A DNA stretch of 64,000 nt, from the NCBI RefSeq assembly GCF_029227915.1, contig NC_079876.1:16990001-17054000 (forward strand). Reading direction: 5' to 3'. Source of the stretch: Hydractinia symbiolongicarpus (Eukaryota; Cnidaria; Hydrozoa; Anthoathecata; Hydractiniidae). Both the position numbers and the translations under genes were made by a program. Shown here one piece after another: positions 2,959 to 61,400 of the stretch. Numbering within the stretch: position 1 is the stretch's first letter; every line of letters begins with the position of its first letter. A model generated the notes under the pieces. The model was not told where the DNA came from. It did not search any database and saw nothing but the letters and a program-made list of their open reading frames with translations.

Positions 2959-4270
2959 TTTGAAAGCAGATTGGTTTGTGAATAAGTTGAACTGTTAAAT
3001 CATTACCAAGTTGCGTCAATGTTTACTTTTATATGTTTCTTTGTTATCTTTCCACATATAACGTCTATGTACTTTTGTGTTTTTTGTTGTAGACAGGTTG
3101 ATGAAAAAGAAAATTATACATGATTAAAACAAAAAAAACAAAACAAAAAAAAACTTAAAACTTTGAGCTCAAATAACTTGGAAACGAGGTGGTAACGTCA
3201 ATGATTTTCATCGTTTGGGTAACTAGGGACCACTTAGGACCAATTTGGGTAAGTTTCCCAAACCTGGGTCCCCAAATCCGTTTTGGAATGAATGGGTTGA
3301 TGACGTCATCAAAAACCCTTTACACCCTAATATCTCTGCAAGCGTTTGTCAAAAGTATATGATCCTATACATTTTCAGGATCAGCGTTTCAAGATCTATA
3401 CGATGAAGGCAACAGGTATACATATTTCTAAAAAATATGTTTTTTCGGTTTTGACGGCCGATTGCTGACTTCAGCGAAATAATAAACCCCAAAATCTGAT
3501 TAAGCGCCCACCAAAACCACATGATCATATACATAATTTTTGATCAGCAGTTTAAGCTCTACAAAATGGAGGCAACGTGAAACCAACTTTTTTTGTGTGT
3601 GTGGATGGGTTGCTAAGGTCATCAAAATTCAAACAACGCTTCGGCCTTCCGTTCCAACATTCACTGTTAGTATTTGACTATTCTTTAGATAGCTAACTTT
3701 TAGTGCCGCACACATGTGGCCCAATAACTAGCCAGGAGGCTGAAGGGAAATGGTCTTTAGCTAGCAAACGTTACTTTTCTACTAGTGAGCTAGCTAAAAG
3801 TTACTGCATGCTATGCAAATATTTATTTATGCTGTAGGGAATTGTTTTTTAGTAAGCCAGGTGGAATTCACAGCTTCGTCTGGAAAGTATATATATAGCT
3901 ATAGCTAACTAAATACTGTCACACTGCTAAACACTTATTTTCCCATAAAAATATAAATTGGTGTTTCCTACTAACGCTCAACGATAGGCTATTCTATTTT
4001 ATATCTCGTGGAATAAGACGCGGTAAAAAAACGTGTATTTATAAATGTTGTTAATTAACTATATTTCATCCAACTTTAGGAGCATATGCTTTTACAAGTT
4101 TCAAGTACTTCGAGTCCTACTTATGTTGGAAATTCTGAAGCAATCTCGCAAAAGTTTATTCCTGAGAATAAATTTATAATCATTTCATTTGCATTAAAAG
4201 TTCTTTATGTAAGAACTAAAAATTGCGGCAGCAAAAAATTTGTTTGAAAATAAAAATAGTAGAAAATGTT

Positions 4271-4346
4271 AAAATTTTCATCGAGGTAATCCAAAAAAGG
4301 AAAAGTGGGGTGTTTTCCTTTTTTGGATTACCTCGATGAAAATTTT
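4271..4346. repeat. Perfect 34-bp inverted repeat, second copy
   Basis: Arms 4271-4304 and 4313-4346 with an 8-base loop are identical to 1209-1284. It was duplicated with the 3.06-kb unit. Confidence 0.95.
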
Positions 4347-4817
4347 ACCAAAAGGAAAGATGCCAAATAACTTGGAAACAAGGTCGTAACGTCAATGATT
4401 TTTCACTGCGTGGGTAACTAGGGACCACCTAGGACCAATTTGGGTAATTTTCCCCAACCTAGGTCCCCAAATGCGTTTCGGAATAGGCGGGTTGATGATG
4501 TCATCAAAAAACCCTAATATATCTGCAACCATTTGTCAAAGACGCATGGTCCTATACATTTTCTTGATCAGCGTTTCAAGATCTATACGATGAAGGCAAC
4601 AGGTATACAAATTCCTAAAAAATTTTTTTAAGGTTTTGACGGGTTTTTGCTGACGTCAGCAAAATTTTTAATCCCTGATAACTCTCTTTTTATTGACCTT
4701 TTGCCTAAGTGGATTTCTCCACGGGCTTTTATAGACTAGTATCCTATATTAAATTAATGAAGCCATTACAGTGCACTTAAAACTTTAGTTGACAGTAAAG
4801 CTTTTTTTTTAAGTAGT

Positions 4818-5627
4818 TTCCATTTTCTGTTGGTAGTGAAGCTTTCAAACGTAAATATGTGGAAGAGAGAGTGAAAAACCGGATTTTAGAAGTGGAAACG
4901 TTGTCTAAAATTGGAGAAGCTTATCCGCATGCTGCTTACGCTGTCTTCGTACATGGATATTGAATGGATATGTTTGCAACGACTGGTAGAGATTATTACT
5001 CTCTCTTCCAGTTAAATATGGAGGATTAGCAATATTTGATCCGTCCAAACGTTGCGTCACTGAGTACAGCAATTCTAGGCCCCTGACAAGTAAAATGGTT
5101 GAGAAAGTGAAATGTCAAGACGATAATAATGACGAATTAATAGAGGACGTATTGAAGAAGCGAAAAAATGAAATTAAAACATAAAGAGGAAGACTTGTGA
5201 AATGACGTTAACATCAATAAAAAGTCTTTGACCAACTAAAATAAACTAAAAGTAAGAGCGCTCGAGGCTTCTTTGGAAACTGGTGCTTCGAGTTGGTTGA
5301 ATGCCTTGCCAATTAGAGAACATGGATTCGTTTTGGATAAACAATCATTTTGGGACAGTTTATTCATATGATACTGCATCCTGCTAAAGCGATTACCATC
5401 CAGATGTGTTTGTGGTGTTTCTTTTACAATTAAACACGCGCTATTCTGTCTAAAAGGTTGTCTCATAACATTACGACACAACAAAATCCGAGACTTCACT
5501 GCCGAACTACTTCAGGAATGTTTTAAGGACGTGAGAATAGAGCCCGTATTACAGGAAATCGCTGGTGAACAGTTTTCTTCATCAACCATAACTACTGACG
5601 AGACACGAGTAGACGTAGCTGCTAGAG
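4818..5627 (+). pseudogene. Second, truncated copy of the RT/zinc-finger remnant
   Basis: This duplicates 1756-2558 with a handful of changes. It has the same stops and ends inside the DETRVDVAAR segment, where the foldback element begins. Open frames on the opposite strand across this stretch and across 2175-2429 are antisense shadows of this degraded gene. Confidence 0.7.
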
Positions 5628-24395: not shown

Positions 24396-25666
24396 ATGGC
24401 AACGGCAGTACCTCCAACAGGATCTTCTCACCACGCATTGATCACTAACAATGAATATCAAATTAAATTGGTTACACTTCTCAATGAATGTTGTGACCAC
24501 TTACGTGAAATTTTACATGATCCTGCCCGTGGCAACATGCCAAGGGATAAGAAACAATTATATTTGTCATTGAAAAAATATAAGAAACATTTAAACCATC
24601 TGAAAAGAGATCAGCTGGAAATCGTTTTTCCGCAAGATAAGAAAACAGATTCGGAATTGTTTGACATCACTATTTTATGTGACGTTCTAATTAATTGTTG
24701 TCACGGTATACAAGCACCAATTGGTGGGTGGAGGACCAGAACACCGCAACCAAATGATTTCAGTGTCGGTGCTGACATCATTCGAATCAGAAATGAGCGC
24801 AATAATGTTATGCATGGAAGAGCAATGAGTTCAGCACAATATAATCAGCTATGGAATGCCATAGAAGGTATATTAAGAAGACTCGGATACGACATAACGA
24901 AAATTAAAGATTTGAAATCTGGTTGCTTGAATGACTTAGACTTATTTAAGATCGAAATTATGAAAGCAGATACTGAAATTTTAAATTTCAATGTTAACAA
25001 TAATAAAGACAGTATTCAGCAAAACGAAGATGGTATTAAACAAAATCAAGATGACATCAAAGCAAATAAAGACAATATTCAGCAAAACGAAGATGGTATT
25101 AAACAAAATCAAGATGACATCAAAGCAAATAAAGACAATATTCAGCAAAACGAAGATGGTATTAAACAAAATCAAGGTGACATCAAAGCAAATAAAGACA
25201 ATATTCAGCAAAACGAAGATGGTATTAAACAAAATCAAGATGACATCAAAGCAAATAAAGACAATATTCATCAAAACGAAGATGGTATTAAACAAAATCA
25301 AGATGACATCAAAGCAAATAAAGACAGTATTCAGCAAAACGAAGATGGTATGAAACAAAATCAAGATGACATCAAAGCAAATGAAGACAATATTCAGCAA
25401 AACGAAGATGGTATTAAACAAAATCAAGGTGACATCAAAGCAAATGAAGACAATATTCAGCAAAACGAAGATGGTATTAAACAAAATCAAGGTGACATTA
25501 AAGCAAATAAAGACAATATTCTGCAAAACGAAGATGGTATTAAAGAGAATAAAGAGAATTATAATCGATTAGCAGCCGAAGTGGAAATAGTAAAGCAAAC
25601 TATTTCTTCATCATCATGTGATCAGAAGAGTTCTCAGTTGGAAGAAACTATAAAAGAACAACCCAG
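24396..25666 (+). CDS. Exon 1: HEPN domain and coiled-coil repeats
   Basis: The start ATGGCA is the first ATG of the frame with a favourable context. Residues 20-170 form an all-helical domain. RNERNNVMHGR (131-142) carries the HEPN R-x4-H motif whose Arg and His are the catalytic pair of HEPN ribonucleases. The spacing and the preceding DVLINCC helix resemble the DZIP3/hRUL138-like HEPN of invertebrates (known family, recognised from pattern). The 21-residue repeats follow from about 205. The frame stays open past the donor (25667 GTGTGT) to a stop at 25719, so intron retention would give a 441-residue HEPN-coil protein. The exon ends in phase 2. Confidence 0.88.
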
Positions 25667-28600
25667 GTGTGTAATTCTTTTTCTATATTGTTCTATCATT
25701 AAATTGATTCTGTCAACTTAACATAAAAGGCAAATATGGTAAAGTAAATAAGTTACCATTCAATTAAATTCCACTTTATCTTGGTGTAACTAAATCACTT
25801 TTCTGTAATGATTTCAATGCATAGGAGAGTCATCAGCAATAAGAGTACATCAGATTGAAATTATGACAGCACTGATTGAAATACAAAAATGTAAAGAAAA
25901 TAAAAACAAAGACAACATTAAGTAAAATCTAAATAACTTAAAGAATGGACTTATTTATATTCAAGTTGATGTAAAAAAAAAAAAAACGGAGTTAGGAACA
26001 TTCAAAATGATTATGAAAGATTGAAAGACGGAATGGGAACAGTAAAGTCCTTTGTTGTCATCGTGTTGTTCAAAAACTTGTCATTTAAACACTATTGATT
26101 TAGAAAGAAATTACGGTTCTATTCTAATTTATATTTTAATCCTTATTTTAGTTATATGCTACTAAAAAATTTTCAAGGAGATTTTGTAATAAAATTTGAT
26201 GATGACTGCTTCAACTGGTCTGCACAAAGTATACAAACTATTATTACTAAAAATTTTACAAGACAATCAAAAGAACTTAATTTCGGCGACGATTATTTTG
26301 TAGAAGAAAAAGAAGGAAAACTATTACTGCTTATTTACAATCACAAATCTATCAATGCTGAATCTATCAATGGGTTATCCATTACGTTAGTTGACAGTGA
26401 AAGTAAAACTCATTTGATTTCAATTGAAGGTGAGTAAGTTTAGATGACGTATTCTATCCAGAAAAAGTTCAAGGCGCTATTTTTCTTCGAAAAAAATAAA
26501 TAAGGAGTTGGAACAATGAAAATAAAAATAGAACACAAAAAATACATTACTAACTAATGTGGATGTGCACAAGGGCAGAGCACAAGTAAAACAAGTTTGG
26601 AAAGCTATATTTACAAGCAAATGTAAGGGTTTATTTAAAATATTATTCGAACCATGAAAAACATTGTCAAGATTTTATTAGAATAGCAATCATTTTAACG
26701 ATGCAAGCCACTTATCTCGACAAAAGTTTTACTTTGGCTATGCGAACGCAAAAATATATAAAAATTATTGCAAAGATTCTTAAAAAATAACGTTTTGTAT
26801 TCTACACCAAAACTTTGACGACTCTAGCGCGTTGTTTTGTACATTACTTTGGATTAAAATTGGTTGTGTAGAAATGTTGCAAACTAAAATAACTTTTTTA
26901 ATTAGATATTAAATTGGTCCAAGCGCATATGTGTGAAACCAGCCATTTTGATGTAACAACGCACAACAGTAGAAGAATATCTGAACAGATAAAATGCATT
27001 GTAGGAGCAGAAAGAGAAGAAGCAGATATTGAATTTATATGTGGTGGTAGCCTGCAAACAATGGAACCTAAGGAGTACGAAGCATTTGAAAGAGATTATA
27101 TCCGGCGTTATTTCACCGTCAATGGTGAATGCATGGAAGAACCACTCCAATTTCCACCTCCAATGCAAAACGTCACACATTCCTTATTCGCACAAAAGAT
27201 AAAGGATGTTATAATCGAATTACAACATTTGTTTACAATATTTACGCATTATAACACGAAGGAACATATTCGATTTCTAAAACTGGATAAAGAATTTTCT
27301 TTGAGTTTGGAAAGCACAATTACTGATAACAAAAGAATTCTACTTGTGTTGCCAAATTATATCGTCAACATTAGATACACAGAAACAACCGACGCAGTTA
27401 GAATACAAGATGAAGTCAAAGCGGGCGAAGAGGACTTGAAGGAGCTATCTATCATCACTAAAAAATATCTTAAAAATGGTCACCTGAAAATGGTTAATGT
27501 TGTAGCTGCACCACATTTCGAAGATATCGAAAATATCCACCTTTGTGTAGACTGCAACCTACTCTCCAAGAAAACTTTGGCTGAGGATAGCAATATGATG
27601 CAGTTCTTTTCAAATATTTTGCAAAGCTCACAAGCACAAAATAAAGTTCAGGATAACAAGGAACGGTATATCAACATAGTCGGTAAAGTCATGTGTTTTA
27701 TGGCTACAAGAAAAGCACTCTATTCTGTTCCTTCACTCAGTAAAAACGTCCACGAACAAATAAGCTCGTTAATACTTTCTCCACAGCAACTCCGTCATTT
27801 ATACAACAACTCTTTAAAAAAAATTATAATCGGTCCCTTAGGCAGTGGTAAGACAGTGCTAGCTTTAGCACATTTGGAAATTGCTTACGAGCGCTCTGAG
27901 AATAGATCGATCATATACTACGTAGTTTGGGACGGCAACACATTGCTGAAACGGGATATTGTCAATCATACTAAAAGATTTAATTACAAAGCCGCTGTCG
28001 AAGTTGTTGTAAAGGATAATGTCGAGTTAGCTCAGGATTTGAAAATGAATGAAGTGCCAACACCATACCAGTTAATAGAGTCATTGGTTAAGAAACATGT
28101 TGACCAAAACCTGCATCTAATAATTGATGAATTAAATGGAGAGTTATTGAACAAGGAAGAATCATCTTTGCTTAAACACTATCTGGAGACTGAAGGAAAA
28201 TTAAATAACTCCTTCATCATTTTTTTCCCACAATCCATTGAGAAACATAGAACATTAATTTCACACCAAAAAGTCACAATACATGACAAGTACAAGTATG
28301 AAGAAACAGGAATGAAAGTATTAAAACTTAACAGAGCAATGAGAACAACCCGGATAATCTTTCAGTTTTTAAAGGCTTTTGAAAATGAAGTAGAACAAGA
28401 CAAGGTAACAATTAAGCTTCCCGATCAGGAATCAAAAGATGCAATATCCACCAAAACAAAAATCGAAAAAAAAAAGAATCTCCTTTCCAAATTTTGGCAA
28501 CAACTGAAACAACCACAACAACAACGGCGACAACAACAGCAGCAGCTGCAGCAACCACCTCCACCACGACAACAACAAGAACAAGGACAAACTACCAGTA

Positions 28601-31600
28601 GCAATGCCACGCCGATAATAAAAGAAGAAGAAGAAGTATTTGAAACACCGGTTGATATTGATGTCGTTGTAGCTTCAATACAAGATGGGGATCTTTCGGG
28701 TAATGTTAGAATTGACACTTTATTAAAATTTAATACAGCGTATTCAATCGGTCATAATATCGAAGGAACAAAACCGTTATTGATACATCCGGCAAATACT
28801 CCAACAACAGACAAAGAGTTTATACCAATGTTAGCGCTTGTTTTACAAGATGTATGTTTACATCATGCCACTAAACGTTTGTTCATATATAACACATTCC
28901 CTCAAAAGGATATTTTTTACAGATTACTAAAACTGTTAAAAATTGATTTTCTTCACTACGACAAGTACACTGACTGGAAAGTTTTAAATTGTGATGATAT
29001 CATAGTTAAAAATCCCTTGCAGAGTCAAAATTATAACCTGCTCACTACTATTGAGGGAAGTCGTGGAGTTGAAGCAGCCGAATGCATCTGTATAATTGAA
29101 AGCAATGATTGCAATTTAAAACATTTGACGTTAGAAGCAATGTCCAGAGCAACACAAAAACTGGTCCTTGTTTCAGCGTCCAACGTCTACCAATCGGATA
29201 CAGTAAAATCATCAACTGGTCATATCATCAGTAAATTGTTAACTGAACATTTGGTTGAATACAATGTAGAGGTCTCAAACGATGAAGATACGGAAATACC
29301 GTTCACAAAGTCTATGAAAAGTAACAGTAAAATAGTTTTTAACATAAAACCACAATATTGGAAATTCAAAGAAATGATAAAAGATTTGGAACATGTTGGT
29401 TTTCAGGCAACGGCTGAACGCCTAAATGCGCATGAGATCGTTAGAAAAAAGTAAGTAAAATTTTTAAACAATAGAGAACAAATTCTCTTTTGAATAGTTC
29501 TTAAAAAAATTTAAATTCAGTGATTCATATTAAAGAATTGGATGGTAAGGGTTGTGTTATATTAAAATAAAAAACCCCCACGAGATGACCAAAGTGTGAT
29601 CATTCACAATCCTCTCTCCTTTTTTTTGTGAAATTTGTTCTAGAGAGGCAAAAAAATCACGACATATGTGTCAGGGCCTATTCTGTACTTAATGAAAACA
29701 TTGTAAGAGTTTTCTAATGTTAAAAATGTTAACCTGCTGCTAAGCATGAAAATAAAAAAAATTTATTAGACAAAATTTTGATCATCTTATAATTTATTTT
29801 ATTAAGTAAAGTCATTAGTTTTGTTAAAAAATATGATATAAATGCAATATTAATAATTTTAGCCTTTATCCTCCTGGAAAAGTGAGCAATATAATTTGCT
29901 CATATTTGTCACCTAAATCATGCATATTGAGATGGCAAAAGGACGCTAATAAATACACCGTTAGAAGACAAGAAAGTAAAAATTCAACCTGGAATAACTT
30001 AGCAACTGACATTTCTTGCAATCAATACATCGTTAATGACATGGTAATTGGTGAAACGTGCAAGTTTTGTGTTGTTGCTAAAAATCATCTTGGTGTATCT
30101 GATGACAGCATTGTGCCTTATCGTCACGAGTAAGATTATATTCAAGTCATATTAAAAACATTTTGTAGCCATGTGTTGAGAAGTATGTCATTCTTGAGGA
30201 ATATTAAAATATGCTCAATTTTTTTAGACTTCCAAACGTTAAGGGTGTCCAATTTGAAGGTAAGAGAAATAGTTATCGTTATCAGCATATTTTAGACAAG
30301 AAAATCACCACGAGACTCTTTGTCAAAATTTAAAGACATGTAAAAACATTAGTGTGAAAAAATAGGCAGAAATAATTTCAGGAGTGTTGACTAATTGTGT
30401 GGTTTGGAGAAAGTAACATTTATTTTAAAATTTCGTTAAAAGTAGATGTTCAAAATCATGAAAATTTATAATTATTGGTTATTTAATGTCGCTACCCATA
30501 TTACAAGAATAAAACGATTCTGATTATTTGTTAAACATTTAATTTGTTTCAAAGTTATATTTACTGTACTTATACCATGGGAAACGCAAAGTCAACTTAA
30601 TGACACTATTTTCTGAAACGAGTTTAGTCCTAGAACCTTTTAAGAAAAAATTTTTCGCTACTTTTTTTCATCTAGTGTTGCTTTTAAAACAGACCTTTAC
30701 CAAAAACGTAAGAGGTTATTAGACGTTATTGACTTTTTTACAAAATTTTAACAACGTTTTGCTTCTTGGTCATATGACATTAATTAAGAAAAACTTAGTG
30801 TTATCAAGTTGAAATAAAGCTACTTTGCATATTGGTAATATATTTCTTAAAAGTGGGTTTCGCAGTACCAAAACACCAGAGCCGTTAAAATGTGGCGCGC
30901 TGATGTTGCTGTTGTGTCATAGACCAAACTAAACTCGCTTGTTTCTGACATGATAATATTTATATTATTTCTTGACAATGACTAAACAAATAATTGATAA
31001 TAATAGGTATAAAATATTTTGAGAATTGAAAGTAACTCTGATCGACCACTTAAACTTGACATTTTCCTAAAATCTCTTATAAATTGCTGACATTTCGTAT
31101 ATATGAAGTTTATTTTTTCGATGAAGAAAATTATTAGTTTCAAGTTTTCCCAATTTCCTCATCAGGGAATGTGAACTTGTGAAATATTTAAAAATGAGAT
31201 ACGATAATGTAAGTTATCGATTACATCATTGGAACGCTCTGATAAAAGTAGATAAATCTTTTTTAATAGCCCAATTTGAGTGCAAAAATGATAGAAATGG
31301 GCTGCAATTTTCCTAATAACCCTAGTTTCCTAATAACTCAAGTCTATTTTTTTATCTTTACTGAAGTAAATTCTATTTAATTTTTAACAGCTATCAGATC
31401 GCAGTAAACACTTTTTTATTTTTCAATATTTTTATGTCTATTACACAGCTTAAACAACACAAAGCAAAAAAATTTTGTTTCGTACGAAAAAATGCATACC
31501 GTATTTCCCGCATATAACCCTCATTTCATATAAGCCGCAGCTATTCAAGATAACAGATAACCCAACAACATTAGAGATTTGCAACAACGATTTACAACAT

Positions 31601-34600
31601 TTGCGATAAGAAAAAATCAATCGGTGTGTTTTTTTTTGTTATACAAGAATACATGACAAGAAAATATAAAACTTATCCCACATAATAATTTCGTACGAAT
31701 TTCGTAAAAATCGATAATTCAACTTGGCCTGTTACAGAAGGGTGTCAATAAAAGTGATACGAAACCTCACCTTGTATTAATAAAGTATATTTTCCATATT
31801 TTCCATATTAGCCCATACTTTTCATCATTGTCGATAGAAGAAATTTTGTTCAAATATTGCCATTAATTTTATTATCTCGTGGTTGCTCGATTTATTCAAA
31901 TCATATATTTAGCACAAATAATTAATAATTTAAAAGTAAATAAGAGCAATTCCCTAAAATTCAATTCCCCCTCACAGCAAACTCGTCATTACAATCAAGC
32001 CATGAGCACAAAGCTGGCGTGGTTAACATCCTAAATATTATTTGTTCGGGTGAGTGAGGTCATTTGCGCCTAAAACAAAAGATTTCCCTATATTGATCAC
32101 GTGAGCGAAGAACAATAGAATTAACCAATCAAAGAGCGCAGTCAGTATTATGATGCCAGAAAAATCGTGTGAGACCCAGCGTAATTTAGGGTGAAACACC
32201 TTAAGTAAAATTAAATAAAAATCTCCTGGCTGAGTGTAGTTTATATTTTTCGTAAATTTCAAAGACACGGTATGTGGTGTAAAATTCTTTAATTAAGCCT
32301 GTTTATAATTTTTTATCTAACGTAATGGCACACAAATTTGGAACAAGGGATTTCTATAGATATCCAAGATAAAATTTTATTTTTAAACTCAGATGCAAAC
32401 TTCGGAAAAGAAGATTGTACTTTGCGTGTCACTACCGGACAACTCAACACGTGTATGCAAAGGGAGAACGTCCTTTTGAGACCTGCCTTGACCGACAAAC
32501 CGAATTGGGCGGCAAATTAGCAGCGAAATATTTTTTTGATTTTAACGGGAAACAAAAAACGTTTGGCGAATTTAAGATACTGTATTTAAGCGGTCTTGTG
32601 GGTATTAAAAACAAGACAATTATTTTGAATCCTTGAAAGTAATGTGTTTTTTTTAAGAATAAACACTGAATATTGCAGTCTGATTAGTTAAAAGTTTACA
32701 TCAAAATATTTCGCCGCTAAATAGTAGGAACTGTTTCTACTTTACACCGAAGCGAATTTTTCCAAGCACAATCAAAACAAACAAGAAACCGCGGTCGGTT
32801 TAAAATCATACTTATCGAAAAGACATTTCATTGTAAACGTTCCGACCAAGAATAGAAGAATTATCGCTAGTATACCAATCTGGACATTAGTGGAGAAAAT
32901 AATTAGCTACTGTATCCAGTTGCATCGGTTGCATGTGCATGTAAATTCTGCATTAGAAGGTGAATAATTTAACTCGCATCAAATTGTTCATAAAAATAAT
33001 TAAGTTAGGTTTTAAGTTAGTTACAATATAGTAATGAATAACTTCTTTTTTAAGTTGCTCATAATTGAAAATTCTTCCTAATAGAAATCATGAGAAAAAA
33101 CACAATTACAAGCAAATCAACAAGTCATTTCATGGTAAAATTTAAGTCGGTTAGTTTTGTTTTACCAATAGCCTGAAGCTGTTCTCATTTTATTTTCAAT
33201 TTTTGCAATACCTAAGTCTCATGTTCTTTAAAAATTGTTCTTATAAAGAAACCCGCGCAGTTTTAACCCATCGCGTGTCAGAGAAACATCTTTGAAATAT
33301 TCGTGCAGACGAAATCGAATATATTGAGTACAGTCGTTCTATTTTTATCACTATATCATACTCAACCAAAACGAATATGTTTCATTCAGCAAATAATGTT
33401 GATAGAAACTGGTCGTGTGAGGTGAGAGAAATTTTAATTTTGATAAAAGCAGCAGCTAGTTTTTATTATACATTATTTTTACAATTTTTACTGAAAAAAC
33501 TAAGAAACTCTTTTTGCGTGCTTGAGATTATTTTCTACCTTTATCCTGCACTTTTCTCCATACAATCTGAAGAAAGCGTTATTTGTTCATTTGTTAGGTA
33601 AGCACAAGGAGTGCAAAATAAAAAGTAGAAGTTCAGTATTAATATTTAGTGAAGTTTCTTCTTTGTTCGTAAGAAACTAAATAAAGTCATGGAATAAGCA
33701 TACTAGCCAGCCTCGGTTTTAGGGATTCATCGCCGTCTTCCCTCATGCCATATAGATAAAAAATCCCTGGAATCGAGAGTGCTAGACTAGGCAATATTGA
33801 TATTTGGTAAAGTTTCTCTTTTGTTCTTAAGAAGCCAAATAGAGTCATGGAATAAGCATACTAGCCACCCTCGTTATCAGAGATTTTTGCCTTTTCGCTA
33901 TAAAACATCCCTGGGGACGAGAGTGCTACACTAGGCAATATTAATATTTGGTACATTTTTCCCCTTGTTTTGAAAAAGGCTAAATAAGTCATGAAATAAA
34001 CAGCTAGCCATCCTATTCTCCAGGGATGTTTACCTTTCCGTTCTTTTCCCGCATAAGAAATAGATAAAAAATCCCCGGGGACGAAAGTGCTAGACTAGGT
34101 TGGTTTATAAAAACGCATTATGTTATCGTAGTAATTGTAGGAATACCTATATTTACTTCCGAGATTTCTATTAAAAATGTCATGTGAAATTATTTTAACA
34201 GGCGAAAAATTTTAGGGTCTCGACTTTAACTGAAACATTTCCGTGGTTCATACAAGTAAAACAATTTCCTCCTGATGCAAATTATCCTATACATGATGAC
34301 GTCAACATATTTACTTGAATAAAAATAAATTATTACTATACTTTTTGTTTCTGCGTTTTCACAATTACTTTTTTTATGTTTAATACATTATAAAATGTTT
34401 TACAATAAAAAAAAGTATTTAATGATGTCATAAGTGTTTCGTTATCATGTTTCATTAATTTATAAATTTATAAATTCATTCATTTATTATTTTATTTTTA
34501 GATATCGTGAAATCTAACGATATCGAGAAACTGAAAAAATTACTATCCATTCATCCAAACATCGTTCACATGAGAGATGGATGTGAACACACACCATTGA

Positions 34601-34983
34601 TGTGGACAGTATATTACACCAACAATACATCAATGGTGGAAATACTCATCTCATATGGGAGTGATGTTTGGGCGGAAGATGGATTGAAACAAAACAGTTA
34701 TCATTGGGCTGTAATTCATGATCGTCACACAATATTAGATATGTTATGTCGATATGATGTAACAAACATCAACCGTGTAGATGTTCTCAACCGCACACCA
34801 TTACATCGTGCTGCAATTTTTGGTCACATCTCATGTGTTGATGTTTTGTTACGTTATGAAAATATTGATGTGACGATCAAAGATATAAATGGAAACACAG
34901 CTTATGATGTTGCTGGAGGATGGAATGGACAAAACTGGGAAATAATAAGACGAAAAATAAAAGAATACGAAGTAAGTTATTAA
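24396..34983 (+). CDS. HEPN - heptad coil - SF1 helicase - FN3 - ankyrin protein (six exons)
   Basis: Exons 24396-25666, 26152-26429, 26906-29450, 29863-30129, 30228-30259 and 34502-34983 join in phase across all five GT-AG introns, giving 4,875 nt and 1,624 residues. Domains in order: DZIP3-like HEPN (about 20-170) with R-x4-H (R135, H140); heptad coil of 21-residue repeats (about 195-410); a region not recognised (about 425-516); a segment with an EVKAG motif that may be PD-(D/E)XK-like (about 640-760); SF1/UvrD-Schlafen-type helicase (Walker A GPLGSGKT at about 826-833, Walker B IIDEL at about 922-926, SRATQK at about 1263-1268); FN3 (about 1366-1454); ankyrin repeats (about 1466-1600). 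HEPN RNases and SF1 helicases recur in RNA defence, so a nucleic-acid sensing or restriction role is a reasonable inference, not shown. No signal peptide or membrane segment is seen, so it is probably intracellular. Confidence 0.85.
25013..25545 (+). repeat. 63-bp coding minisatellite, about 8.5 units
   Basis: Eight full units and a partial ninth, each 63 bp, are nearly identical. Each encodes three heptads with Ile at every seventh position (IQQNEDG, IKQNQDD, IKANKDN). Variants include D/G in the second heptad and K/E near the end. Because 63 is divisible by three, all six frames are open through it, producing a spurious 181-codon antisense frame (24981-25526) and spurious plus-strand frames. 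Confidence 0.97.
25826..26065 (+). pseudogene. Decayed duplicate of the coil exon inside intron 1
   Basis: After an AG at 25824 the sequence reads RVHQIEIMTALIEIQKCKEN then KNKDNIK, a stop, NLNNLKNGLIYIQVDVK and, after a 14-A run, IQNDYERLKDGMGTVKS. IEIMTA..EI resembles IEIMKADTEI of exon 1 (about 186-195), and NDYERL..... TVK resembles the end of exon 1 (NYNRLAAEVEIVK). The stop and the A-run frameshift show it is not used, or only in a non-coding transcript. Confidence 0.6.
26152..26429 (+). CDS. Exon 2: linker domain not recognised
   Basis: The acceptor TTTTAG ends at 26151 and the donor GTGAGT starts at 26430. With the 2+1 and 1+2 phases the frame runs SYMLLKNFQGDFVIKFDDD through KTHLISIE. 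It encodes 92 residues rich in alternating hydrophobic and polar positions, suggesting a mainly beta fold. I do not recognise the family. Alone it could look like a 93-residue gene, but the phase match to both neighbours supports an exon. Confidence 0.82.
26906..29450 (+). CDS. Exon 3: possible nuclease-like segment and SF1 helicase
   Basis: The acceptor ends at 26905; the donor GTAAGT is at 29451. Numbering from the Leu codon at 26914: RILLVLPNYIV...QDEVKAG (141-170) followed by VNVVAAP and C..C (195-214) resembles the NERD/PD-(D/E)XK-like module often placed before SF1 helicases in invertebrates; the upstream catalytic Asp is not obvious. LSPQQ (288-292) is a Q-motif-like lead; Walker A is IIGPLGSGKTVLA (305-317), Walker B LIIDEL (402-407), motif III IIFFPQ (435-440), motif IV LNRAMRTTRII (472-482), and motifs V-VI EGSRGVEA and AMSRATQKLVLV (714-753). 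A Gln/Pro-rich insert (about 525-575) separates the helicase halves. Schlafen-like or UvrD-like affinity is my inference. Confidence 0.86.
29863..30129 (+). CDS. Exon 4: fibronectin type III domain
   Basis: The acceptor TTTTAG ends at 29862; the donor GTAAGA is at 30130. The frame begins LYPPGKVSNI and has CILRWQKDANKYTVRRQ (strand with Trp), W.NLATDI and GETCKFCVVAKNHLGVSD, matching the FN3 landmarks P..v......l.W, Y.v......W and Y.fRV.A.N..G.S. The domain fills one exon with both boundaries in phase 2, typical of a shuffled module. Cys replaces the usual Tyr in the Y.f.V.A strand. Confidence 0.82.
30228..30259 (+). CDS. Exon 5: 32-nt linker exon
   Basis: TTTTTTTAG precedes 30228 and GTAAGA follows at 30260. 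In phase it encodes LPNVKGVQFE, flanked by split codons. It is accepted because its 2-to-1 phase change is exactly what joins the FN3 exon to the ankyrin exon. Confidence 0.72.
32517..32720. mobile_element. 204-bp MITE-like element
   Basis: It starts TTAGCAGCGAAATATTTTTT and ends ATATTTCGCCGCTAA, inverted ends of about 16-20 bases with one or two mismatches. No coding sequence. GGCGGCAAATTAG just left of it suggests part of a further copy or a longer imperfect end. Confidence 0.6.
33636..34104. repeat. Three tandem copies of a 145-165 bp repeat with CTCGTCCCC-type ends
   Basis: Copies start near 33636, 33794 and 33937 (TATTAATATTTAGTGAAG, TATTGATATTTGGTAAAG, TATTAATATTTGGTACAT). Each contains ATAAGTCATG.AATAA.CA..CTAGCCA.CCT and then ATCCC.GG...GA.AGTGCTA.ACTAGG, related to the palindromic CCTCGTCCCCAGG family. 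Confidence 0.85.
34502..34983 (+). CDS. Exon 6: ankyrin repeats and stop
   Basis: In phase 1 after exon 5 it begins DIVKSNDIEKLKKLLSIHP. Ankyrin helices with TPLMWTVYYTN, YHWAVIHDRH, TPLHRAAIFGH and GNTAYDVAGG give about four to five repeats, with canonical TPLHxAA in the third or fourth. The frame ends with a TAA at 34981-34983. A strong GTAAGT lies at 34972, but the only nearby acceptor (35933) would give a stop after four codons, so the terminal reading is preferred. AATAAA hexamers follow at 34992 and 35009. Confidence 0.85.
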
Positions 34984-52400: not shown

Positions 52401-55400
52401 TACTAACCACGATGTTAACAAACCTTTTTACAGTACTGCAAGTTTTAGTGACTCATAAATATATATTTATGAGTGTTTAAATGCACACATATATAGATCT
52501 TCTTCCTACAGTACTCTGGTTTGTATTGCCCATAGTTAGTTCACCATTTACCTATGTGCCTTTTCTGGTCAGCAGCATATATTTTGGTCAGCAGTCTTGC
52601 TTAGTATTTAAGCTGCAGTTGCCTCATGGTTTTCCTTTTCAGTTCTAGCAGTTTTTCTTATGCTTATGTCTGCTGCTTATTAATCCACTTATATCTAATC
52701 AATCAATTTGCAATCAAACCAATCTTTGGCTAATTAAACATGAATTTATCACCTATATGGATGCTGTTATATTTTATCTCACCTACTCAAACGCCAGATG
52801 CCTCAGAAGATGAAGATTCAACTTCTCAAACCTTCCAATCTGCTGCAATGTCTGTCGCTCTTGAGGAATCGTCCACACTCAAAAAGAAATGTATCCCAAA
52901 ATGTCCTGGCTGCAAGGCACTTCTGGCTCTACACGACTTTGGTATTCCCAGTCGTCACTGTCCAGGTCGTCGTTCTAGCGCTACCAACACTGTCACATCA
53001 GCTGCTTCAACACTTTCCTCAACTATCGCTAATAACCCAATGTCTTCAATCCAAAGATCTTCGCCTCTGCAGTCTCACCTAAACAACCCAAACAAATCTT
53101 CTTCACCGTCTCAGCTAGCTGCTCTTCGAAATCAGCCGGCTGTCTTAGATTTAATGCCATTAATTCCTGGAATAAATTGCAGTCTTTAATGACTAGAAAA
53201 TTTGTCTCCCTTGATTATTTTAATCTTAGAAGTGATCTGAAAAAGTACTTTGTTTCCTCTTACTAATCCTTCCTGAATTGTCAGACTTGGCCATTTGTTT
53301 CCCGCATGGTTGTTTATCATTTGACCCACTTTTATGTGTGTGTTGTTTTGTGCGTCTCGTATCGTTTACTGTAATTGTCCAAGGGTGGCCATACCCTTTG
53401 CCTTAGCTTTATGCTATTAGGTATGGTCTCCCTTCAATAGCATTATATATTTTAATTTTGTTACCCTGACTAATTATGATATTTATTTTCTTTTTCTTTA
53501 TATTTATTTTCTTTTAATTTTAATTGTATATATATAACTGCTATTGATAAATAAAATATCTATCTATCAGGAAGAGCTATCCCTAAGGGAAAGTTTACAA
53601 ACAGAAGAGCAACACCTTCTTAATCAGATTGCTGTTTGACAATCAGAATTAGCTAGGCTTCGCTCAGCTTCTTCCAGAAATGCCTGCCCAGCACAAATTT
53701 TAAGCACTTCCCCGTTGCAGCAACCTGTAAATCCAACCAATCGTGTCCAAGACAATCTCCGCCCTTCACCTCTTGACGTACAACCGCCATCTTGTTTTGC
53801 TTCCCTGCTTGCTCCGCAACAGTCCGCCAATTTGTTGACCAATCGCACTGTCTTGTCACAACAACAAACACGCTCCCTATCGGATGTTTTTCGCCAGCAA
53901 GAAGACCGTAGTTCAGAATTGTTTCTGCGCCCTGCACTTTCTTCCAACACTGGAAATTGAAGGATTAATCGAGTACTTACGTATGATGATTGATCCAGAT
54001 TTTATTTTCCAAATCTTCTGCGTAAGCATGAGGGTGAGAGCGAAGCTCGATAACCCAAAATCCTACTTTGAAGACAGAACGTGACTCGCTGGCCGAGTGT
54101 ACCTGCTAAAGCCAAAAAGACATAGGGCAGGGAGGGCAGGGCTCATGCTTACGCAGAAGATTTGGAAAATAAAATCTGGATCAATCATCATACGTGATTA
54201 ATCCTTCAATTTTATTTCCCAATCTTCTGCGCAAGCAGAGTATGAGACTTCAAAGCATAAACGCGGCCAGCGAGTGTGGTGAAAACAAAACAAAGGGTGA
54301 GAAGGATAAGATAAAGAAAATTTGAATAACTGAGCAAACTTCTTTTAACAATATAATGTTACAATCAGTATGTAAATGTTAAAAAGAACGCAAACTAAGA
54401 TTCATGACTTTTCGCTTCCATAACTGAGTCCAAGAGCGAGGCACCAAGATCATGAAGACTTGTCACACTACCAATAACATCTCTACAATAATAACGATAA
54501 AAGGTAGAATCCCTACTCCAAGTAGTACCATACTTTAAAATGACATCTAGAGGTACCCCGGTAATTTTTGCTTTACTCCCAGAGGCTGAACGACAGCTGC
54601 CTGGGGAAAAAACACTGGTATCAATACCGGCTGAGGTCATAGCTGATTTTATCCATCTTGATAGTGTATCCTTCTTAGAGGCAGCATGATGAGGTTTCCC
54701 AAAAGTTACAAAAAGCGGAGCAATTTCCTTAGATATCAACTGTTCTCTTTTTGACAGGTAGGCTTTGGTACATTGGAGTGGGCATAAATCTGGGTCAGAA
54801 GGGAATGCCCTGTACATCAAGGTCCTATCAGTCTTTTTAGGCCGTGTTGTTTTAAGCAAGCCAGGTAAGTGACATAGCATCACATCGTCTGTCAAATCTA
54901 TATACGGAACAGATATATTATGGACACTGTGAACTCTTTGACCTGCTAAAATAGTAAGGAGACAAGCCAGCTTGATGTTAATATCCTTAAAGGATAAATC
55001 TTTGTTAGGACTAAGAGACTTTAAATAAGTCAAAAGAACATTTGTATCACATATTAAAGATATTTGGGGGTACTTGGTCTTATATTAAAAACTCCTTTTA
55101 TAAAACGGCTTATCAATGGATGCTCTGAAAGAGAACTGTAACCACTGATTGAAACAACTGAAGCAATAGCACTTCTAGTTGTACATAAAACACTATATCC
55201 AGACCCACCTTTGAATAATTCAGTAAGGTGTATTAACACATCTTTCACATTTGGATGATAGGGATCAATCGACCTCCCAGTGCAATATTGTATCCATCGT
55301 CTGATTGGACCCGAGTATTGTTTCTGGGTACCTTCTCTCCATGATGCTGCAATGATATCGACAGTGTCTGATGGAAGCTCTTTACCTTGTAACGATTCCC

Positions 55401-58400
55401 GGAGACAGGCAGCATGAGCAGCGACAAGGTTTGGTGTAGAGGATGTTGTCTTTTTGTTCCCGGTAGAAACAATAATCTAGATGAAGGAGGAAATAACACA
55501 GGTGTCCTGTATAACATATTAATTGCTTGAGAAAACCAAGGCTGCGAAGACCAGAAAGGAACTACAAGAATGCCTGTGGCTTGATCTATATTTATCTTTG
55601 CAAGAACTTTTCCAATCAAATTAAATGGTGGGAAGGCATAAAAGTTTAAATTCGACCAGGTCTGAGCGAAGGCATTTACAGCTTTAGCATCTGGATCAGG
55701 TCTTAAAGAAAAATAATCCTCACATTTTGCATTGAGTCTGGATGCAAAAAGGTCAATATCAAATTTCCAAAAAATGTCGGAAATTATGTTAAATTGTTTT
55801 ACATTCAAGGACCATTCAATGTTATCCTGAAATTGTCTTGACTTATAATCAGCTATAGTATTTAATACACCAGGTATATGACAAGCTGATAACCAAACAT
55901 CACATGTTCTAGCAAATTCCCATATTTCAACAGCCAATTTATTACAAGCAATGGAGTGAAGGCCCCCCATCTTTGTTATGTAGGCCACAGCTGTGGTGTT
56001 ATCCAATCTTAACTGAACATGTCTATAATGTCTTATTTTCAAGAAGGCTTTGAGTGTAAAAAATGCAGCTAACAACTCTAAAGTATTGATATGCTCAGGT
56101 AATTCTCCTTCAGACCAACGCCCCCCTATTTGAGAGTTTCCGTCAGTGCCACCCCATCCTTGAAGACTAGCATCAGAGGATAAAATAGGATCAATTTTAG
56201 GCAATTGTATAGGTCTGGTAAACTGAGCCATTGTGAGCCACCACTGTAAATCCTTAATAGAAAACTCTGAAATAAAAACCTTTGAATCAAAATTTCCATG
56301 GCCTATAGTTTGAGTGCTAGATTCTTATCTGTCTCCAAGGACCTGTAATGTAACTTGCCATACTTCACGGCATCAAAGGCAGAAACTAATGTTCCAATAA
56401 CCCTGGAAACAAACCTAACTGTGGGGTGATGCATGTACAGCAAGTCCTTACATAGCCACTTTAATTTTATGACCCTTTCCTCGCTTAAGGCTATTGTCAT
56501 CTGAGCAGAGTTTAACACAAACCCTAAAAAGACCATACATTGGGTAGGCACAAAAATTGACTTGTTTGGATGTACAGTAAATCCTAAGCTGCTCAAAAGT
56601 GAGACAGTTGCCGTAATGTTTCTTTGGCATGATTCATAAGTATCACCTTGCAAATAAGAATCATCTATATATACAACAGATACATGACCTGCCCCTCTTA
56701 GTACTTTAAAGGGTGCTTTAAGAACTTTGGTGAAGATCCTAACAGCTGGACCAAATCCAAAAGGTAAAGCTAGAAATTGGTAAAACTGTCCATCCCAAGA
56801 AAAAGCTAAGAACTTTTGGAAGTCAATATGAAAAGGGATGCTGTGGTATGCGTCCTTTAAGTCAATACTTCCCATCCAAACACCTGGTTTGATAAGACAT
56901 AAAACATCTTGCAGTGTTTCCATTTTAAAATGGCGATATCTGACAGATCTATTTAACTGTTTAAGGTTGATAATCATTCTTGAGCTACCATCTTTTTTTA
57001 GGGACAATAAATATACCTGAAAGAAAACAGTTATTTGTTGCTTGTACAGTACAGTCCAGATGTAAGCGTACGCGTACGCTCAAGTTTCACACCTTTTTCT
57101 CGGAGGCGGTAGTTGTTTGTCTTTTGTTCTTATTAATCATCTTGCGAGTCTTGTAAGTCATTAACTTGCGCGTAATAAACAAAAGATTATTGAAGAAAAA
57201 ATAGCTTATTATAACTGCGCGTAACTATTGTTAAATAGTGTTAACATAACTATTCCCAATAGCATAATTGCAAATGTTATCAACTCTATCAATGTGACAC
57301 GAAGAGCTATTGTTTAATATTTTTATTAAACAAAGGTTTTGCGTGGAAACTAAATAGACTAGCGAGAAGGCATTGTTGGTTGCGCGGGTTAAATAAAGCC
57401 TTTACGCGATAGAAATTATTTTATTTTAACAAAGATTGAAAATTTTTTTAGATTGCATTTTAAAACTTTAAAAACGAAAAACGGCGATAGAAATGTTTTT
57501 TTAGATCGCATTTTAAAAGTTTTAAAACGAAAAACGGCGATAGAAATGTTTTTTTAGATCGCATTTTAAAAGTTTTAAAACGAAAAACGGCGATAGAAAT
57601 GTAATTTTAGATCGCATTATAAAAGTTTTAAAACGAAAAACGGCGATGGAAATGTTTTTTTAGATCGCATTTTAAAAGTTTTAAAACGAAAAACGGCGAT
57701 AGAAATGTTTTTTTAGATCGCATTTTAAAAGTTTAAAAACGAAAAACGGTGATAGAAATGTTTTTTAGAATGCATTTTAAAAGTTTAAAAACGAAAAACG
57801 GCGATAGAAATGTTTTTTTAAATCGCATTTTAAGTTTTAAAACGGAAAACTGCAATAGAAATGTTTTTTTAGATCGCATTTTGAAAGTAAGAGCTTGTGA
57901 TTTTAAATATATCAGATTAAAATCTCGTTACTATAATTAGTTTCGTTGTTAAAAAAAATTAAAATTCAATGGCCGTCGCGTTTAATTTATTCTCGCGCAG
58001 AGTATTGTTTTTAAACAATGTTTCTCGCTATGCTTTTGTTTTTAACACGAAGCAATTATTTTCGCGCAATTTGAAAGGAACTCGCTATCCTATTGTTTTT
58101 TTTAATGAAAGCAATTATTTTTGCAAGTTGAGCGTACGCGTACGCTTACATCTGGACTGTACTGTACCTGCTGGATTGCCTTCTTTTGTAAAAGTTGTTG
58201 AATTTCCTTACTTATAGTTATACAATCTTTTTGTGAAAACTTCACTGGGTGGTAAGATGACACTGGGACAATAATAAATTCAATTTTAACTCTATGCTCA
58301 ATTATGTCTAGAATATACTGGTTTGAAGTGATAGTCCTCCAAACTTCCAAAAATTTGTGAGTATTACAAGCTTGATAACGCCTAACTGCTAACTCAAGGT

Positions 58401-61400
58401 CAGCAACAACAAGGTCTTTACCTACCATTGTGTTCTCCCTTTGTACCCTTTGTACTTCAGGGTTTGAGTGTACCTTCTCAGGGAGTGGTTTCGATCTTTT
58501 GAAAAGGTCTTCTCGTTTTTTGACTGGTTATACTTTGCAGAGGAGGAATAACTGGAGGATGGCTGTTTGTACTTTTTAAAATTATTTTTTGAATATGGTG
58601 TAGATGGTCGTGAGAGCACTTTACTAGTTTTCTCCTCATCTTGCAATGATTGGATTCTTTTGTCCAAATCATCTCCAAACAGCAACAAGTCTTCTTCAGA
58701 CACATCCTTTGCCAATCCTTTTAGGTAAGGCATTGCATCGATTAATCCGACTCTTCGACTGGCATTACCGATTAGACAAAGAGCATCTTTAGCCAAATTT
58801 AATAAAATGGATGGTTCTATTACAATAAGGTTTCCTTGTTTGGGTTTTGGGTTATCGAGCTTTGCTCTCATACTCTGCTTGCGCAGAAGACTTGGAAATA
58901 AAATGGTAAGCCACTTCGTATAGTCGATTTTGTGTCTCGGCTTCGTCCTGTGGAGCAGGAGAAAGTTATTTCTACTGATCCTGGTTCGCAAACTACGCTA
59001 ATGTTGGCCATTGGAAATAAGAAGCCAAGACTGGAATCTCTTTCCATGGAACAATATAACATAGCTAGCTAATTTGAGAATTTTTTATGAATTATTGTCT
59101 TCTGCCAGATTGCCAACCTCGTCCGATTTACGTGACTATTTGTCTTATTCCATTAAGATCTTAGAGTTGGCTAGAAAGTACACCTGGGAGTCTGTGCTAA
59201 AGTATGACGATGAATATCGAATTCTTCAGCACACTTATGGCTATCCATGGAGCTTTGACAATAGCCATTTGCATGAAGTGATGCTTATACATCGTTGGGC
59301 CTCCCCTCCTGTCTGTAACCCTTCCAGTACCTTAAGTAAGGGAAATTCAGGTTCACCTGCCTCAGGATCGTCTTCAGGGTTTCCTACACATACTTCTTCC
59401 GGTGTGGAAATATGTCGTAATTTTAACTGCCAAAAAGGTTGCCAAAAAACAGAATGTAAATTCACCCACGTCTGCAACCGCAAAATTGGTAATCAGGCTT
59501 GTGGCAAACCTCATTCTGGACAAAACCACAATTCTGACAATTGACTACCCTCAGAATTTCGCACTCCTCTTAATGTTGACTTATGGACCAATGAACTGGC
59601 TGAAGACCCAGATCGTGACTTCCTCCTTAATGGAATTCACTGTGGTTTTCAGCTTCTTCCTAAGGACTCTGATTTATTGCCTGCCGAAATGAATAACTAC
59701 TTTTCTGTTACCAGTCCTACAGCTCATATGAAAGTAGAAGCTACTCTGCTGGATAAACTTAAAACTGGTAACTATGTTCTTACTCAATGTAAACCTACCA
59801 TTGTCAGTGCTCTTGGGGCTGTCCCCAAACCTGACTGACGAGTTACGCATTATACATGACTGTTCCATGCCAGTTGGAAAGGGTGTCAATATGTACATTG
59901 ATATTGCCTGTGCTATGATCAAACAGGGATATTTTATGGCCAAGGTTGATTTACGCCATGCATATCGGTCAGTACCTGTTCATCCATCAAACTATGACAT
60001 ATCACGTCTTCATTCAAGACAACACTTATTATCATTTTTGCACTTTTTGCAGCTCAACTCACTGACTTCAGTCTGTGATATGGTTGCCATCAATCATATG
60101 TCTGCCTATTCTTATTATTTTCTCATTGGTAAGTATACCATCTGTGGTAGCTAATTTTTGTATTCTCCTTCCTCTAGAGTTGCCCCCCTTTGTTTCGGAG
60201 TTGGTGCACGACGTTGTCCTTTTTCGGCAGGCCACCTATGCTGAGAATGCAAAAAAGAGCTATCGCACGCATTGCAAGGCTTATGAATGTTTTTGTAGCC
60301 AGATGTCTTCGCCACTTGTGCCTGCCTCCACAGATTTTTTATGCCTATATATTGCCCATCTGGCTAGGTTTTTACTACCACAATCAGTTTGTATGTATCT
60401 AAATTTTGTTGGCCTTCTACATCTTGAGATGGGATATGCTAATCCTCTAACCAACAATTGGACACTATCCACAGTTTTAAAAGGTATGAAGCGTATGCTT
60501 GGTGTTCCGGCCAAGCCACGTCTTCCTATTACCACTGCTCTTCTTTTTGGTATTCGTTCTCGCCTTAACCTAAATTGTAGCTTTCATGCTTCATTTTGGG
60601 CTGTTTGTTTAGTTTCATTTTTTGGTCTGTTCCGTAAGTCACATTTATTGCCGGCATCTTCTACGATATTTAATCCGCTTAAACAACTACAGTACAGTCC
60701 AGATGTAAGCGTACGCGTACGCTCAACTTGCAAAAATAATTGCTTTCATTAAAAAAAACAATAGGATAGCGAGTTCCTTTCAAATTGCGCGAAAATAATT
60801 GCTTCGTGTTAAAAACAAAAGCATAGCGAGAAACATTGTTTAAAAACAATACTCTGCGGGAGAATAAATTAAACGCGACGGCCATTGAATTTTAATTTTT
60901 TTTAACAACAAAACTAATTATAGTAACGCGATTTTAATCTGATATATTTAAAATCACAAGCTCTTACTTTCAAAATGCGATCTAAAAAAACATTTCTATT
61001 GCAGTTTTCCGTTTTAAAACTTTTAAAATGCGATTTAAAAAAACATTTCTATCGCCGTTTTTCGTTTTTAAACTTTTAAAATGCATTCTAAAAAACATTT
61101 CTATCGCCGCTTTTCGTTTTTAAACTTTTAAAATGCGATCTAAAAAAACATTTCTATCGCCGTTTTTCGTTTTAAAACTTTTAAAATGCGATCTAAAAAA
61201 ACATTTCTATCGCCGTTTTTCGTTTTAAAACTTTTATAATGCGATCTAAAATTACATTTCTATCGCAGTTTTTCGTTTTAAAACTTTTAAAATGCGATCT
61301 AAAAAAACATTTCTATCGCCGTTTTTCGTTTTTAAAGTTTTAAAATGCAATCTAAAAAAATTTTCAATCTTTGTTAAAATAAAATAATTTCTATCGCGTA

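Follow-up and report, generated by a model that had tools for sequence, protein, structure and literature searches.

A Hydractinia symbiolongicarpus gene joining HEPN, coiled-coil, SF1-like NTPase, FN3 and ankyrin parts is one of a multigene family in its genome

We have analyzed a 64,000-nucleotide (nt) stretch of the genome of the hydroid Hydractinia symbiolongicarpus (contig NC_079876.1, here C2, C2:16990001-17054000; hereafter the window) and find that it holds a six-exon gene joining a HEPN_DZIP3 domain, a long coiled coil, a P-loop nucleoside triphosphatase (NTPase) with motifs like those of superfamily 1 (SF1) helicases, a fibronectin type III (FN3) domain and ankyrin repeats. The gene probably belongs to a hydroid family of intracellular effector proteins directed at RNA, one that is large and has expanded recently, and is most likely a variant of the animal HEPN_DZIP3 immune-type proteins in which an SF1-like NTPase stands where NACHT often sits. 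Its makeup suggests an antiviral or stress-response protein of an unstudied kind, the immune role being argued by analogy with known relatives. An initial annotation of the window had proposed a single gene of this domain order, carrying in addition a possible nuclease-like segment and perhaps representing a new immune-type effector family in non-bilaterians. The single gene, its HEPN, coil, FN3 and ankyrin parts and, for this one genome, its membership of a family are all borne out below; the SF1 helicase holds as an SF1-like motor and the nuclease is not supported.

The gene and all of its features lie on the plus strand (positions are those of the window), and its six exons, separated by five GT-AG introns, join in phase to encode 1,624 residues and a stop codon. 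Exon 1 (24396..25666, residues 1-423) contains the start codon, the HEPN domain and the coiled coil, exon 2 (26152..26429) is without a domain known to Pfam, and exon 3 (26906..29450, residues 517-1364) comprises a conserved N-terminal region followed by the two-part P-loop NTPase. A single FN3 domain is encoded by exon 4 (29863..30129, residues 1365-1453), exon 5 is a 32-nt microexon (30228..30259), and exon 6 (34502..34983) encodes the ankyrin repeats and the stop codon. The introns measure, from first to last, 485, 476, 412, 98 and 4,242 nt. Omission of exon 5 puts exon 6 out of frame. The gap between exons 4 and 6 offers three possible single-exon bridges (9-250 nt), of which exon 5 alone has a strong acceptor, and across 27 partly overlapping control stretches there was one strong-acceptor bridge in all. 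A leave-one-out comparison of codon usage gave a signal in frame for exons 1, 2, 3, 5 and 6, exon 5 with its 10 codons being too short for a judgement of this kind, but not for exon 4, which scores 0.015 bits per codon in its own frame and 0.067 in another. Taken by itself, the window gives moderate support for one gene.

Comparison with paralogues confirms that the six exons form one gene of 1,624 residues and not several, because the paralogues keep the same splice sites and exon order. Thirty loci were read for splice sites, among them the window's own and two whose exon 3 contains a stop codon (L103 and L116). All 30 have AG|GT at the ends of exon 3; exon 2 was located in 27, with AG|GT in every one; and exon 4 was located in all 30 as 31 copies, one locus (L113) having two FN3 exons, with the acceptor AG in 31 of 31 and the donor GT where it should be in 27 of 31. 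The 32-nt piece corresponding to exon 5 was located in 22 of the 30 loci by a search pattern seeded on the window's own exon 5. Exon 6 is present in each of the three downstream stretches read for it, behind L103 (81% identity), L124 (57%) and L129 (53%). At 34 of 53 motor loci in the genome a HEPN_DZIP3 match lies upstream on the same strand within 8 kb, whereas the 8 kb downstream and the opposite strand have no such match at any of the 53. An intron 5 as long as 4.2 kb and an exon 4 frame that codon usage does not support are what would be expected if two or more neighboring genes had been wrongly chained, the ankyrin or the HEPN part belonging to another gene, but the common splice sites and exon order, the consistent upstream position of HEPN, and the lack of any ATG in the exon 6 open frame ahead of the first ankyrin repeat make this highly improbable, and we reject an arrangement of separate genes. 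Intron 5 also holds, at 33598-34099, two sets of diverged repeats, one with a 54-nt and one with a 103-nt unit, each present three times.

The gene is one of a family and not a one-off. When exon 3 was compared with the whole genome (480.9 Mb in 76 contigs), it matched 65 pieces that make up 53 motor loci, of which 38 are on C2 and the others on seven further contigs. This count is a lower bound because 53 of 117 first-look candidates were scored. HEPN_DZIP3 itself matches the genome 108 times, and for 73 of these matches there is no motor locus within 12 kb. Alignments were made from subsets chosen for spread (A2, 20 of 30 loci; A3, 17 of 36 motor loci; A4, 10 of 30 loci; A5, A6 and A7, with 14, 13 and 14 sequences), and L103 and L116 are left out of the protein alignments. 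Exon 3 is open in 28 of the 30 loci read, the exceptions being these two, with one stop codon each. Ratios of non-synonymous to synonymous substitution rates (dN/dS) in exon 3 were obtained between the window gene and 15 of 29 paralogues. They range from 0.34 to 0.65 for nine close copies and are 0.20 (L124), 0.16 (L126), 0.22 (L127), 0.16 (L128), 0.24 (L129) and 0.24 (L130) for six divergent paralogues, the latter values being approximate since the synonymous distances are 1.2-1.8. The ratios show purifying selection on the motor exon. Exon 3 is identical in L114 and L115, and part of the copy number may be due to haplotypes or to duplication in the assembly. The family is described here for the genome of H. 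symbiolongicarpus. No relatives of the gene were found among viral contigs, phages, plasmids, or bacterial and archaeal contigs, and profile searches of NCBIfam and PHROGs gave weak matches only. In PADLOC, exon 1 drew coil-type matches and exon 3 a single weak match, to mad8 (E 0.0069).

Two further features of the family were seen in passing. Motor-gene groups appear to recur at steps of about 0.7 Mb at ~5.7-7.0 and 10.8-12.2 Mb of C2, some with identical exon 3, which may reflect segmental duplication in tandem or haplotypes assembled twice. One motor relative (L133, C14:6195022-6196815) has a reported open frame of 2,300 residues, far longer than in other members, and the stretch read there, open for 626 residues after a stop codon, is at odds with that figure.

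The HEPN domain (24573..24932, residues 60-179) is securely assigned, matching PF18738 with an E-value of 1.3e-19 and 70.8 bits against a curated Pfam cut-off of 27. It has the R-x4-H motif in the form R135-N-N-V-M-H140 (R135 at 24798-24800, H140 at 24813-24815), and the motif is retained in all ten paralogue HEPN domains read, exon 1 having been read in whole or in part in ten paralogues. Two of these, L126 (with L143) and L130 (with L145), combine the same type of motor with a clearly different HEPN_DZIP3 clade and with a stretch lacking I-x-x-N heptads. Their HEPN domains are 30-31% identical to that of the window gene whereas that of L129 is 70% identical, though the motors of all three are equally distant at 56-57%, and so the HEPN-coil front module has apparently been replaced within the family in L126 and L130. 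The retention of R-x4-H in all ten paralogues, the different clade included, argues against the HEPN domain being a non-catalytic adaptor or RNA-binding module with the NTPase as the enzyme. RNA binding without cutting is held to be probable for some HEPN domains, but these are ones without the motif (PMC3710099; the published papers are cited throughout for the portions consulted), and we regard this alternative as unlikely.

Downstream of HEPN, residues 200-388 (24993..25559) form 27 consecutive heptads of the pattern [I/V/M]-x-x-N-x-x-x, unbroken, with Ile, Val or Met at position a and Asn at position d. The coiled-coil state is read from this heptad pattern. Because [I/V]-x-x-N-x-x-x is a recurrent heptad of chloride-binding trimers (PMC12933892), we predict that the coil forms a trimer. 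At the DNA level the coil consists of near-identical 63-nt units, the first eight of which carry nine non-synonymous changes and one synonymous change relative to their consensus. Overlapping I-x-x-N heptad pairs vary greatly in number among the paralogues, as far as these were read, from 67 (L102) through 4 (L129) to 0 (L124, L126 and L130). Intron 1 contains a decayed copy of the coil segment, its frame interrupted by stop codons, which suggests that the coil segment was once duplicated. The core of this copy (25852..25927) spans 76 nt at 71% identity and scores 39.2 bits, where the best of 300 shuffles reached 34.6; weak traces continue to ~26056 (16.9 bits). The 195-residue open frame on the minus strand opposite the coil (24981-25568) looks like a by-product of the 63-nt repeat and not a gene.

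The SF1-like NTPase core extends from 27772 to 29172 and presents, in order, a series of motifs that we take to be Q and I to VI of SF1 helicases: a Q-like LSPQQ (residues 807-811) upstream of Walker A, motif I or P-loop GPLGSGKT (27832-27855), motif II or Walker B LIIDE (28117-28131), motif III FFPQSIE (from 28222), motif IV LNRAMRTT (from 28327), motif V TIEGSRGVE (29047-29073) and motif VI AMSRA (29137-29151). A Gln/Pro-rich insert of variable length (28483..28590) lies between the two halves of the NTPase. The G-x-x-G-x-G-K of Walker A and the DE of Walker B are invariant in A3 (17 sequences) and A5, and motifs Q, III, IV, V and VI are present in order and conserved in deep paralogues, the motif VI Arg being replaced by Cys in L136. 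Patterns for motifs I, II, IV, V and VI, written after reading the protein, occurred in that order in 0 of 40,000 shuffles, the motif IV pattern having been fitted to the protein and the motif III pattern being unspecific, with matches at several places; motifs I, II and VI alone occurred in 3 of 40,000. No shuffle out of 100,000 contained the motif V-VI pattern, which is present in all 79 UvrD controls and in 4 of 6 Dda controls (the UvrD set being 79 of 80 uvrD loci, with one partial locus omitted). Alignments of the motor with UvrD and with Dda each scored above 60 of 60 shuffles, on the P-loop; the UvrD alignment also covers the upstream LSPQQ without a gap, and motifs V-VI of UvrD fall where they should in the alignment, with a score higher than that of any of 25 shuffles. 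Among 13 second halves, Viral_helicase1 alone is matched by more than one (3 of 13, best E 0.0059), and among 14 first halves ResIII is matched by 13, SLFN-g3_helicase by 4 (best E 0.03) and AAA_11 by 4.

Several results weigh against reading the gene as a member of a family of RNA-directed effectors with an SF1-type motor. The first half of the motor matches STAND-type and general P-loop families as well or better: best E-values among 14 first halves were 1.7e-06 for ATPase_2, 2.5e-06 for ResIII and 4.1e-05 for NPHP3_N, with NPHP3_N matched by 11 of the 14, ATPase_2 by 10 and nSTAND_NTPase5 by 7. For the window protein no helicase profile above the Pfam cut-off was found, the matches of its motor exon being mainly to P-loop families and all below cut-off. 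Profile comparison with hhalign gave no decisive match (Dda 21%, UvrD 1.7%), the second half aligned with Dda no better than shuffles did, residues 900-1020 aligned with neither UvrD nor Dda better than shuffles, and neither single sequences nor alignments A3, A5 and A6 found a significant match in the PDB. At the level of the family, a HEPN match is missing from the upstream 8 kb at 19 of the 53 loci of the motor, and the I-x-x-N coil is not family-wide, with no such heptads in the parts read of L124, L126 and L130. The HEPN-less loci, at ~12.6-13.9 Mb of C2 and elsewhere, belong mostly to more divergent groups. Single-sequence AlphaFold models were too poor to count either way (predicted local distance difference test (pLDDT) scores of 32 and 40).

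Since no profile passes its cut-off and no PDB match is significant, we call the motor SF1-like: a P-loop NTPase with SF1-like motifs. The ordered motifs of the SF1 helicase in the initial annotation stand, with their conservation in paralogues, and the SF1 assignment is based on them and not on a profile match above cut-off. The first-half matches to NPHP3_N, ATPase_2 and nSTAND_NTPase5, in which the window's own fall below cut-off, would also fit a diverged STAND/NACHT-type switch in place of an SF1 motor, so that the protein, with its HEPN, NTPase, FN3 and ankyrin parts, would be an unusual NLR-like receptor that oligomerizes without moving on nucleic acid; HEPN_DZIP3, NACHT and ankyrin repeats occur in known combinations (PMC3710099, PMC8260672). 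No NACHT family is among the matches listed, however (including the best 25 of 32 and the best 25 of 36 families), LSPQQ lies upstream of Walker A within the gap-free part of the UvrD alignment, and the second half has motifs V and VI in UvrD-like order and the Viral_helicase1 matches. A STAND-type switch is therefore a rather improbable reading, and we continue with an SF1-like motor.

Of the remaining parts, the segment perhaps meant as nuclease-like (27187..27507, residues 611-717) matches no nuclease family in a Pfam profile search, PD-(D/E)xK and NERD included. Its candidate catalytic strand, the placement of which is a guess, reads N-I-R (residues 671-673; N-V-R in L135) within an N-I/V-R-Y/C pattern, and the N and R are invariant in the 17 paralogues aligned in A3. 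The order of elements would fit the alpha-beta-beta-beta-alpha-beta core of PD-(D/E)xK enzymes in a very poor model (pLDDT 32), and a segment with that fold would be dead, since the strand has N-I-R where (D/E)-x-K is expected. An active nuclease is accordingly set aside, and the segment may well be something else, conserved for another reason. The FN3 domain is better founded: the window's fn3 match falls below cut-off (E 0.061 for the whole protein, 0.00099 for exon 4), and fn3 is matched by all ten exon 4 copies scanned from paralogues (best 6.8e-06), while a profile built from such copies finds titin FN3 domains at 7.4e-30. The ankyrin repeats are unambiguous, with Ank_2 passing its cut-off on the whole protein (E 4.5e-23) and reaching 4.1e-30 on exon 6 alone. 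C-terminal repeats of the NLR kind are thus present as ankyrin repeats, for which ligand sensing is putative.

The closest known proteins are the animal HEPN_DZIP3/hRUL138 proteins, including the HEPN-NACHT NLR-like receptors of corals and the pearl oyster, which have the same HEPN family with R-x4-H and likewise show ankyrin fusion and large lineage-specific expansion; the window gene differs in its SF1-like NTPase instead of NACHT, its FN3 domain and its long I-x-x-N coil. Schlafen group III helicases are approached by the four weak SF1-type matches of first halves (best E 0.03) and by one suggestive PDB hit to Schlafen 5 (E 0.44), but neither match is significant, no Schlafen core domain is among the Pfam matches listed, and the Schlafen nuclease is of a different type. 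RNase L differs from the window gene in its HEPN family (KEN), its kinase domain, its lack of a motor, its domain order and its activation by 2',5'-oligoadenylate (2-5A). Like the window gene, it combines ankyrin repeats with a nuclease of the HEPN fold in a single chain (PMC3710099). The bacterial Type II/III CoCoNuTs and HEPN-SF1/UvrD fusions also bring a coil, a HEPN RNase and an SF1 helicase together in a system predicted to target RNA, and an inactivated PD-(D/E)xK fold is present as well in some CoCoNuTs (PMC11090510, PMC3710099). Likened to the window gene by description only, CoCoNuTs comprise several bacterial proteins in an operon with a McrB GTPase and a UPF1-like helicase, whereas the window gene is an animal gene with introns, and no McrB-like match was found in it or in ten other open reading frames of the window that were scanned.

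In animals, partners of DZIP3-type HEPN domains include TPR, Zn-ribbon, RING, ankyrin, CARD, NACHT, DEATH and LRR modules, and a helicase is absent from the partners named in the portions consulted of the 2013 catalogue (PMC3710099). HEPN is the commonest NACHT partner besides LRRs in 9 of 15 cnidarians surveyed, and DZIP3-type HEPN domains are expanded in anthozoan NLRs (PMC8260672); this source names Hydractinia and HEPN, and the parts of it consulted do not describe the family of the window gene. The pearl oyster has an expansion of DZIP3-type HEPN in which R-x4-6-H is retained in 194 of 202 (PMC9646362). For TRADD-N proteins, in cnidarians and in animals of other groups, fusions with HEPN and with SF2 or Mov10 helicases have also been reported (PMC8195603). 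In the parts of the open literature consulted we found no description of an animal HEPN_DZIP3 protein with an SF1-like NTPase or of this domain order.

By the logic of RNase L, with its ankyrin sensor and HEPN-type nuclease, or of an NLR in which an SF1-like motor replaces the NACHT switch, the parts could work together as follows. The ankyrin and FN3 modules would recognize or dock a trigger or partner, and the NTPase would bind or move on nucleic acid, or switch with ATP. The coil, with Ile at a and Asn at d, would bundle the proteins, and the clustering would pair HEPN domains for the cutting of viral or cellular RNA; such clustering would switch on RNA cutting because HEPN ribonucleases usually need two domains per active site. 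More tentatively, the genes could constitute a Hydractinia multigene class of nucleic-acid-sensing RNase receptors that use an SF1-type motor for NACHT, with a variable HEPN-coil module and coil length directed at different invading RNAs, and so be a convergent counterpart of bacterial coil-HEPN-helicase defence. Against any immune role stands a non-immune RNA-quality-control or stress protein in which the motor remodels RNA or ribonucleoproteins and HEPN trims, the expansion reflecting dosage or neutral segmental duplication. HEPN domains do serve in RNA processing too (PMC3710099), and many copies are near identical and grouped on C2, some of them perhaps duplicated only in the assembly or as haplotypes. 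In our judgement, the existence of deep paralogues whose HEPN-coil module has been replaced, and the spread over seven further contigs, suit conflict genes under diversification better than they suit a housekeeping enzyme, which leaves the non-immune alternative with a small share of the probability.

Elsewhere in the window, two retroelements that we take to be DIRS-like lie in opposite orientation at 54398-62342, with long inverted repeats; reverse transcriptase is matched at 56306-57079 (RVT_1, 1.6e-19), and both have weak tyrosine-recombinase matches. A direct repeat of ~2.6 kb with 99.4% identity occupies 1-2557 and ~3063-5627.

Hydractinia symbiolongicarpus is a model for allorecognition. 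It is also a laboratory model for stem cells (PMC10411563). At least 53 motor loci, 38 of which share one chromosome and 34 of which have a same-strand HEPN, a motor exon under purifying selection and, in one clade, a replaced front module together form the pattern expected of conflict genes. To our knowledge such animals have no interferon system, and the family would offer an assayable system in which to ask what switches on RNA decay in them and whether the NACHT switch can be replaced by a motor.

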